From: a bacterium
GTDB lineage: Bacteria; Desulfobacterota_D; UBA1144
Length of the DNA: 32,521 nucleotides
Direction of reading: 5' to 3'
Assembly (NCBI GenBank): GCA_002708105.2
Contig: PAOQ02000022.1
Location: forward strand, 2,319-34,839
Each line of letters opens with the position of its first letter. Position 1 is the stretch's first letter. Below are positions 30,027 through 32,018 of this stretch, piece after piece. The notes below the pieces were generated by a model. It saw only the letters and a list, made by a program, of their open reading frames with translations, was not told the origin of the DNA and made no database searches. Both the position numbers and the translations under genes were made by a program.

Positions 30027-30782
30027 ATGAAAGCAATTATTCTCGCAGCTGGAAAAGGTAAACGACTTCAACCCCATACTAATGAAATTCCAAAGTGTCT
30101 TCTTACAATAGACAATGAAACAATTCTTGAGCATCAAATTAATCACTTAAAATCTTGCGATATCGAAGAAGTTAATGTTGTTGTGGGTTTTGCTAAGGAT
30201 AAAGTTGAGGAGTTTCTAGGAAATTATGATTCTTTAGGGATGAAGATAAATACTATATACAACCCTTTCTGGGAAACAACTAATAGCCTTTTCTCATTAT
30301 GGGCTGCAAGATTTCAATTAAATTCTGACGTTGTACTTCTAAATGGTGATGATGTTTTTGAGCTTGAAGTAATGAACCAGATACTTTCCAATAAAGATGA
30401 AATATGTGTACCGTATAAAGTTAAAAAAAATTATGCGGCTGAAGATATGAAAGTAAAGATTAAAGATGGGTATTTATCAGCGATAGGAAAAAATCTTAGA
30501 AATGCCTCAGGTGAATCTGTTGGAATACGAGTTTTCAGAAACGAGGGAGTTGAAATACTTAAAAGATCTCTGGAAAAAGAGATTAGGACTGATAACTTTA
30601 ATCTTAAATGGTATGCATCAGGAATAGATAGGATTCTACAGCGTGGTCATAAAATTAAAACTCTAGATATCAAAGACTTATATTGGCACGATGTTGACTA
30701 TCCAAATGATTTAAATAACGCCAAAATCAATGTAAATAAAATCTCTACTAAGAAGAAAAAAACAAATCTTAAAATAGTATAG
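30027..30782 (+). CDS. Sugar/alcohol-phosphate nucleotidyltransferase (phosphocholine/inositol-1-phosphate cytidylyltransferase-like)
   Basis: The 251-aa protein begins MKAIILAAGKGKRLQPHT, the nucleotide-binding signature, with the PKCLL lysine and a metal-binding LLNGDDVFE segment (Asp108/Asp109). The sequence YNPFWETTNSLFSLWAAR and the ending WHDVDYPNDLNNAK resemble the cytidylyltransferase subgroup that includes LicC-type and inositol-phosphate enzymes rather than the classical glucose-1-phosphate uridylyltransferases. It should activate a phosphorylated alcohol as a CDP (or other NDP) derivative. The CDP-alcohol phosphotransferase gene follows after 6 nt, so the pair probably makes and uses the same CDP-alcohol. 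The exact substrate is inferred. Confidence 0.78.
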   Translation: MKAIILAAGKGKRLQPHTNEIPKCLLTIDNETILEHQINHLKSCDIEEVNVVVGFAKDKVEEFLGNYDSLGMKINTIYNPFWETTNSLFSLWAARFQLNSDVVLLNGDDVFELEVMNQILSNKDEICVPYKVKKNYAAEDMKVKIKDGYLSAIGKNLRNASGESVGIRVFRNEGVEILKRSLEKEIRTDNFNLKWYASGIDRILQRGHKIKTLDIKDLYWHDVDYPNDLNNAKINVNKISTKKKKTNLKIV

Positions 30783-30788
30783 GCAAAT

Positions 30789-32018
30789 ATGCTTCCAGTA
30801 GTTATATGCAGTGGACCAGGAATAGATTCAGAGAAATTAGATTTATTTTTACATGAGAAAATAGGCGATTTAACTCTAACCGAAAGGATTCTGTTGTTAT
30901 TAGCCTCAGAAGGGTTTAGCAATGCTTACATTGTAAATAATGTGGCTCAGATAAATTTTAAACGCCTGAATAAAAAATTCCCTGATTTTAAATTATTACA
31001 AGTAAGTTCTCTTATAAATCTTCCTAAAAATAAAGACTTATTATTTTTTCAAAATAATGTGGTCATAAATAAAAAACAACTTCAATCAACTTTAAATATG
31101 ATTAAAGAAGAAAATGAATCTATTAGGATGAGTAACTCAGAGGATCTAGGAATCGTTTTTATAAAAAATGACAAAAATAATATATTTGTATTAAATAATA
31201 TTAATGAAATAGACGAAAAGATTAAAAAAATCTGTCCAAATGATTCTCCTATCAAACTTAAAGCTAGTGAAATAAATTCTAATGTTGGTAGAGATTTTCT
31301 ATTTAATCATATTAGCAAGAACGTCAGTGGTTGGTTTTCAAAAACTATAAACAGTAAAATCTCAATACCAATAAGCAAGTTACTTATTAAAACCTCTATT
31401 CATCCAAATATTATAACTCTAATAGTTGGGCTAATTGGTATTTCGTGTGGAATTTTTTATGCAATCAATATGCCTTTTATTGGGGCAATTATTTTACAAT
31501 CAGCAACAATACTTGATAGATGTGATGGTGAGGTAGCTAGAATAAAATTACGTGAATCAAAATTTGGTCAATGGTTTGATACAGCTCTAGATCAACTATC
31601 ATACTTTTCAATGTTTTTAGGAATCAGTATTTGCATGAATAACCCAAAGTTCTTTCTTTTCACTGCTGACAATATTATATTTAAGCAACTATCAATATTA
31701 AACATACTTTTGTATTTAATATTCCTAACCACGATACTTTTCTTTATGTTAAGGCGAACAGAAAATGGAAGCTTAGCATATTATCCTAGTGAGGTTGATA
31801 AAATTGTTCCATTAGAGGATAGATCTTTAAGCTATAGAATAATTACCAGATTTAGGTTCCTTTTAAAAAGGGAATTTTTCTCCCCTGCAATGATTATCAT
31901 ATCTCTTATCGGATATGAAACAGCTACAGTCTTGGCTTCTGTATTATTAATAGGAGGCTTGTTACATCAAGTTTCAGATTTTATTGAATTAAGAAAAAAA
32001 ATAGATATTACTTATTAA
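30789..32018 (+). CDS. CDP-alcohol phosphotransferase with a degenerate N-terminal nucleotidyltransferase-like domain (DIPP-synthase-like)
   Basis: The 409-aa protein has two parts. Residues 1-170 resemble a nucleotidyltransferase fold (TLTERILLLLASEGFSNAYIV) but the ATP/CTP loop is MLPVVICSGPGID in place of the usual glycine/Arg-rich signature, so it is probably inactive. A linker VSGWFSKTINSKIS...HPNIIT, as in IPCT/DIPPS proteins, leads to an integral-membrane CDP-alcohol phosphotransferase domain with an intact DG-x2-AR-x8-G-x3-D-x3-D motif (Asp246, Asp264, Asp268) and about six helices. It would transfer a phospho-alcohol from CDP onto another alcohol, possibly an inositol phosphate. The intact nucleotidyltransferase is supplied by the gene just upstream. 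Product identity is inference. Confidence 0.75.
   Translation: MLPVVICSGPGIDSEKLDLFLHEKIGDLTLTERILLLLASEGFSNAYIVNNVAQINFKRLNKKFPDFKLLQVSSLINLPKNKDLLFFQNNVVINKKQLQSTLNMIKEENESIRMSNSEDLGIVFIKNDKNNIFVLNNINEIDEKIKKICPNDSPIKLKASEINSNVGRDFLFNHISKNVSGWFSKTINSKISIPISKLLIKTSIHPNIITLIVGLIGISCGIFYAINMPFIGAIILQSATILDRCDGEVARIKLRESKFGQWFDTALDQLSYFSMFLGISICMNNPKFFLFTADNIIFKQLSILNILLYLIFLTTILFFMLRRTENGSLAYYPSEVDKIVPLEDRSLSYRIITRFRFLLKREFFSPAMIIISLIGYETATVLASVLLIGGLLHQVSDFIELRKKIDITY

Follow-up and report, generated by a model that had tools for sequence, protein, structure and literature searches.

The locus studied here raises the question of what two adjacent genes make together, when the first encodes an intact nucleotidyltransferase and the second a CDP-alcohol phosphotransferase fused to a nucleotidyltransferase-like domain devoid of catalytic residues. 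The pair lies in what we call the window, the whole 32,521-nt stretch of DNA analysed, whose source genome is that of a marine Dadabacterium (0.91 Mb, 24 contigs, completeness 88%), a size that fits the streamlined marine Dadabacteria (PMC8115339). The initial annotation, made from the letters alone, had placed the pair in a non-thermophilic organism, in agreement with this origin. Upstream of the pair are three genes whose sequences suggest panB, panC and panD; downstream, on the opposite strand, a predicted membrane transporter is encoded. The two genes of the pair have the coordinates given by the initial annotation and are separated by 6 nt (Table 1), and no match was found in the literature under their database names. 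Our results suggest that the pair probably uses CTP to activate a small alcohol in phosphorylated form, which is then handed to an acceptor in the membrane.

Table 1. Features of the gene pair in the window, and IPCT-DIPPS-type fusions found in other Dadabacteria
Feature	Position	Strand	Evidence or remark
Promoter of the pair, TTGACT-17-TATAAA	29971..29999	+	Only exact match in the window; conserved in marine genomes
Gene 1, LicC/PntC-like type cytidylyltransferase, 251 aa	30027..30782	+	Intact signature loop and metal Asp
Gene 1 signature region MKAIILAAGKGKRLQPHTNEIPK	30027..30095	+	Loop intact in 52/52 orthologs
Gene 2, CDP-alcohol phosphotransferase with an N-terminal pseudo-nucleotidyltransferase domain, 409 aa	30789..32018	+	
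Gene 2 residues 1-165, nucleotidyltransferase fold lacking both the loop and the metal Asp	30789..31283	+	Model; Foldseek to AF2299
Gene 2 residues 177-404, CDP-alcohol phosphotransferase domain	31317..32000	+	PF01066, model helices, tree
CDP-alcohol motif D243..D246-G..A-R...G...D264...D268	31515..31592	+	Complete in 52/52 orthologs
IPCT-DIPPS-type fusion	L084:2163-3506		
IPCT-DIPPS-type fusion	L085:5039-6352		
IPCT-DIPPS-type fusion	L086:3815-5131		
IPCT-DIPPS-type fusion	L087:1-1274		
IPCT-DIPPS-type fusion	L088:7977-9305		

Conservation of the gene pair

A strong match to gene 2 was present in 55 of 58 Dadabacteria genomes. Two of the three genomes without it have completeness values of 59% and 77%, and in the third (G030) the contig breaks off at gene 1, so that gene 2 was probably lost to assembly. 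The two genes were adjacent at all 13 loci recovered by the first scan of genome contigs, which came from marine Dadabacteria-type genomes, at 30 loci of a phylum-wide search with gene 2 (some genomes being shared with the first 13) and in 20 larger regions from outside the marine family, with intergenic gaps ranging from -17 to 12 nt. This adjacency persists in the three of those 20 regions (L058, L064 and L073) where panD was not recognised beside the pair.

The initial annotation had also assigned the locus a promoter of its own, and footprinting in the marine clade bears this out: the promoter listed in Table 1 is kept in seven marine Dadabacteria, its spacer being more variable, with a difference at one -35 base in L012. 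A generic sigma-70 scan gave 19 matches, with 18.2 expected by chance, and thus no excess.

Gene 1 resembles LicC/PntC-type cytidylyltransferases

Gene 1 matches the Pfam family NTP_transferase (2.2e-13) and carries the signature loop GKGKRLQPHTNEIPK. The loop, which the initial annotation had already called intact, and the NGDD motif are present in 52/52 distinct orthologs, and a W.DVD motif in 51 of them. The solved structures closest to the gene 1 model were IPCT, PntC, Tm IPCT and LicC, with RmlA in lower ranks, and from these fold neighbours we infer the use of CTP. A tree of 43 domains included as IPCTs the stand-alone Tm enzyme, the Af fusion and intact fusions of both CDP-alcohol subfamilies; in it, a branch with support of 100/100 parts gene 1 and the PntC-like enzymes from all IPCTs, placing gene 1 with the PntC or 'phosphocholine cytidylyltransferase' type. 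A grouping with NTP:sugar-phosphate uridylyltransferases, which would have spoken against the original interpretation, was not obtained. The motifs of gene 1 tell the same two types apart, since ATKV and DTGxF occur in every IPCT tested, fused or reference, while neither DTGxF nor ATK was found in any of the 52 gene 1 orthologs, all of which have DMKV/I and ESV/IG.

Gene 1 shares its fold with LicC (1jyk) and PntC (6pd1/6pd2) and, in the tree, falls on the same side as PntC, but it differs from both in its substrate pocket. Glu104 and Glu196 of PntC, which are Asp in LicC, are the residues near the amine (PMC6697681). At the first of these positions gene 1 has Asn in 52/52 orthologs, and at the second Ala, Ile or Val in 51/52, the remaining sequence not being read by the search pattern; the IPCTs mostly have Met and Ser there. 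As both amine-binding acids are replaced, an amino-alcohol substrate is unlikely. The residues of the pocket suggest a phosphorylated substrate that carries no amine and, together with the tree, argue against inositol. The genomic setting differs as well, as the source genome has neither choline kinase nor PEP mutase. A phosphonate (AEP) route was rejected on account of the absent PEP mutase and the missing amine-binding acids, and a phosphocholine route because a choline kinase above the cut-off was found in only 1 of the 58 genomes.

The N-terminal domain of gene 2

Pfam found no nucleotidyltransferase match in the N-terminal part of gene 2. The AlphaFold model, by contrast, gave residues 1-120 a nucleotidyltransferase-like fold with a mean pLDDT of ~80-90, and Foldseek aligned the whole protein with AF2299 over 399 columns (E=1.2e-11), the alignments behind the structure models being shallow (14 sequences). 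The comparison of the gene 1 and gene 2 profiles was weak (hhalign probability 70%, E=4e-5), and for this reason the shared fold is a reading of the model. Neither the signature loop nor a W.D[VI]D motif occurs in any of the 52 distinct gene 2 orthologs. On the strand that should bear the metal-binding Asp, the alignment shows FQNN, LQSN, ESSL and the like in place of NGDD, a substitution that we describe from the alignment and leave uncounted, since the search pattern for this site fit 16 of the 52 sequences. Among marine orthologs the mean identity of this domain is 42%, versus 77% for the membrane domain.

The initial annotation had recognised a nucleotidyltransferase-like domain without its loop in the second gene, and the model, Foldseek and the 52 orthologs agree with it. 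Its description of the domain as a decayed copy of the same domain stands with regard to the fold and falls with regard to descent, as this is not a copy of the subfamily of gene 1.

Such a fused domain already has a precedent, since AF2299 of Archaeoglobus fulgidus (PDB 4o6m/4o6n/4q7c) and DIPPS both have an N-terminal cytidylyltransferase-like domain (PMC4634129). AF2299, the best full-length fold match of gene 2, likewise joins this domain to a CDP-alcohol phosphotransferase, and gene 2 is of the AF2299 type in that its nucleotidyltransferase-like domain lacks an intact loop. What differs in Dadabacteria is the pairing with gene 1.

The CDP-alcohol phosphotransferase of gene 2

Gene 2 matches CDP-OH_P_transf (PF01066) above the cut-off (4.7e-9). 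Its motif, D243-R-C-D246-G-E-V-A-R...G260...D264...D268, holds every catalytic Asp, as had been claimed from the sequence alone, and is complete in 52/52 orthologs. With the pattern D..DG..AR.{8}G...D...D and its membrane helices, of which the model has about six, the protein qualifies as a CDP-alcohol phosphotransferase.

The region that follows TM4 separates two subfamilies. In the alignment, group A, with DIPPS and AF2299, has S/AYTxD/EK with RDxR close behind, whereas group B, to which gene 2 belongs, shows GSL, ~30 inserted residues and K/RRDFF or a sequence very like it. The acceptor-side SYTxD/EK motif of DIPPS is found in none of the 52 gene 2 orthologs. A tree of CDP-alcohol domains joined group B with the Dadabacteria (88/90) and group A with AF2299 (94/82), support that we consider moderate. 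Gene 2 thus differs from AF2299 in subfamily and in lacking the AYTGDK motif of the archaeal protein. The A. fulgidus IPCT-DIPPS fusion (PDB 4mnd) and its relatives have the domain order and the CDP-alcohol motif in common with gene 2; they differ in that the fused domain is catalytically intact, the acceptor motif is SYTxEK and gene 1 is no IPCT.

Group B comprises both fusions with an intact IPCT-type domain (G168, G188, G207 and G071) and fusions with a dead domain (G253, G206, G204 and G106). The JM1 motif is DG...NR in the intact fusions, SG...N-A/S in G253 and G206, and S/TG...N-S/G (once H-S) in 52/52 gene 2 sequences of Dadabacteria. As the pocket for the donor substituent is located near JM1 and TM2 (PMC4634129), the changed motif makes an altered donor plausible. 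The dead-domain protein of G204 (L125:8530-10641) is 703 aa long and has ~350 further residues besides its N-terminal and CDP-alcohol domains.

A probable partner in trans

The presence of intact fusions among the relatives of gene 2 implies that the domain of gene 2 itself died and that an enzyme of another subfamily seems to act in trans. A search with the gene 1 profile in twelve genomes was consistent with this idea. In G206, which lies outside the phylum, a gene 1 relative (237 bits) is located directly upstream of the dead-domain gene 2; in G253, also with a dead domain, a relative of 206 bits is found on another contig, and G281 has a stand-alone relative of 211 bits. None of the four genomes with intact group B fusions had a gene 1 relative above 94 bits. 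The dead-domain genomes G204 and G106 had only weaker relatives (45 and 102 bits). In these few genomes, therefore, the rule that a dead domain goes with a partner in trans appears to hold for the close relatives of gene 2 and is unproven for the distant ones. This supports the original suggestion that the cytidylyltransferase activity would be supplied in trans and that the fused domain may have become structural.

Lipid-related genes in the neighbourhood

An OlsC-like hydroxylase gene was found in 22 genomes outside the marine family and in none within it. In 21 of the 22 it follows gene 2 immediately on the downstream side; the genome that departs from this is G030, in which no gene 2 was found. 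The best NCBIfam match of this gene is OlsC (371 bits, E=2.6e-111), below the curated cut-off for that family (450 bits, the best score in the phylum being 371.5). A gene of this kind, from the Asp/Asn beta-hydroxylase family, is the third member of the operon at L059, L060, L061, L062, L065, L068-L070, L072 and L074-L077. Its place directly after the pair in 21 non-marine genomes makes a membrane lipid headgroup the best reading of the locus, and supports the alternative guess of the initial annotation, in which the pair makes some other phosphodiester, for instance a lipid headgroup. The gene cannot simply be assigned to an ornithine-lipid machinery, as a strong match to the OlsB-type family PF13444 is absent from 12 of the 22 genomes, although PF13444 is itself of limited specificity and does not settle the matter.

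Other neighbourhoods likewise favour a membrane lipid. Plasmid pPNP1 of Pseudomonas sp. JS425, on which sul1 and intI1 are found as well, has three neighbouring genes (L139:4745-7765): one related to gene 1, one for a CDP-alcohol enzyme of a subfamily other than that of gene 2, and one OlsC-like, which scores 325 bits against the Dadabacterial profile. Gene 1 relatives in Diaphorobacter and Roseomonas are found in clusters with genes for an acyl carrier protein, a fatty acyl-AMP ligase, PLP enzymes and LptF/G permeases. The Roseomonas PLP enzyme, used as a query, had matches in 56/58 genomes at ~28-43% identity; a ceramide acceptor was set aside, since this query does not separate serine palmitoyltransferase from related enzymes. 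In other phyla, a gene for an MMPL transporter lies beside the group B fusions of G207 (L124, closest to HpnN) and G071 (L132), and a radical SAM gene beside those of G188, G204 and G071 (L121, L125 and L132), so that group B fusions might there belong to a lipid module. By its description, CpgD of Caulobacter is a comparable cytidylyltransferase, making CDP-glycerate for a lipid headgroup, and differs in serving a sphingolipid (PMC12275187).

A proposed pathway and its rivals

We propose that gene 1 would convert CTP and a phosphorylated hydroxy-compound X without an amine to CDP-X, and that gene 2 would transfer phospho-X from CDP-X to a lipid acceptor, forming a phosphodiester headgroup. 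The order would be of the Kennedy type, in which the headgroup and not the lipid is activated. The ancestor of gene 2 would have been a bifunctional fusion with an inositol-type cytidylyltransferase domain that subsequently lost its catalytic residues; the dead domain may have been retained as a cytosolic scaffold, the activity now being provided in trans by an enzyme from a different subfamily and the alcohol probably no longer being the same. In many Dadabacteria outside the marine family, the OlsC-like enzyme might then 2-hydroxylate an acyl chain, either on this product or on a companion lipid. For this pathway as a whole, from CDP-X to lipid headgroup, we consider the chances to be evenly balanced.

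The principal rival is that X is inositol, so that gene 1 would make CDP-inositol from inositol-1-phosphate and gene 2 would transfer it to a lipid or to inositol phosphate (DIPP). The inositol-1-phosphate synthase that the first reading proposed to look for is encoded in 53/58 genomes, including the source genome, where its gene (L007:703-2076) has a pair of ribosomal-protein genes on one side and a gene resembling that of an ATP synthase subunit on the other. This presence does not discriminate between the readings, because a PI-phosphate-synthase-like gene, a possible user of the same substrate that can account for the inositol phosphate, is equally widespread, with a match of at least 120 bits in 56 of 58 genomes (140.9 bits in the source genome, below the cut-off of 180). 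IPCT-type fusions among the relatives of gene 2 also speak for inositol, as does the alternative inositol-lipid cluster proposed for Bacteroidetes (PMC9246714), which has a stand-alone NTP transferase and a CDP-alcohol phosphotransferase in a Kennedy-type scheme and, unlike the pair in our window, includes an inositol-phosphate synthase and a HAD hydrolase. Transfer from CDP-inositol to a lipid has been reported in Rhodothermus, according to a citation in PMC9246714. A locus resembling that cluster was found in another phylum (G281, L137:6990-14713), where a dead-domain CDP-alcohol enzyme adjoins an inositol-phosphate synthase gene (663 bits), with NTP transferase, HAD hydrolase, class III aminotransferase-like and ATP-grasp-like genes nearby.

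Against inositol, gene 1 falls outside all IPCTs (100/100), lacks their ATKV and DTGxF motifs and has a different pocket, with Asn and Ala/Ile/Val where IPCTs mostly have Met and Ser, and the acceptor and donor motifs of gene 2 are changed, SYTxD/EK being absent. Moreover, five Dadabacteria, of which G057 belongs to the marine family, hold, in addition to the pair, a separate IPCT-DIPPS-type fusion with an intact loop (Table 1), whose aligned members have the DIPPS acceptor motif. The IPCT/DIPPS reading of the initial annotation is not sustained by these results; the separate fusions and the PI-phosphate-synthase-like gene make CDP-inositol a rival and not the leading reading, and we regard it as unlikely.

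Less probable still is a soluble phosphodiester, a compatible solute or storage compound made from two soluble alcohols. The marine habitat would suit such a product, and so would the six helices of gene 2: this architecture, shared with AF2299 and DIPPS, which process no lipids, is linked to soluble acceptors, the enzymes for lipid acceptors having extra helices (PMC4634129), and it therefore counts against the lipid that we propose. However, the acceptor motif of AF2299 and DIPPS is missing in 52/52 gene 2 orthologs, the operon of many relatives includes the OlsC-like lipid hydroxylase, and the pair is also kept in larger genomes of the phylum outside the marine clade.

A surface decoration, in which the CDP-X from gene 1 would feed a transferase acting on glycans or the cell surface, with gene 2 as just one of several users, seems to us very improbable: LicC/PntC-type enzymes do serve mostly surface molecules (PMC6697681), and some plasmid relatives lie beside glycerophosphotransferases, but gene 1 is strictly adjacent to gene 2 across the phylum and no conserved glycan genes were found near the pair. 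That the two genes are mere neighbours without a common pathway, held downstream of panD by inherited synteny, is scarcely credible given their tight spacing in all lineages, their adjacency without panD beside them (L058, L073) and the recurrence of the pair in another phylum (G206).

Significance

Returning to the lipid headgroup, we advance only tentatively, and with more doubt than for the pathway itself, the wider idea that this is an undescribed pathway running through the whole Dadabacteria phylum, with a CDP-alcohol new to lipid pathways, in which an inositol-type domain died, an enzyme of another subfamily took over with a new substrate and the dead domain became a docking scaffold. 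If true, an ocean lineage streamlined to a genome of ~1 Mb would have kept a pathway devoted to making a headgroup, and it seems that nobody has yet looked for the product. The pair would also illustrate cleanly how an enzyme from a different subfamily can take over, in trans, the work of a fused catalytic domain. Since the fusions range from intact ones through dead ones that have a partner to dead ones that lack it, what a dead domain does can be tested directly.
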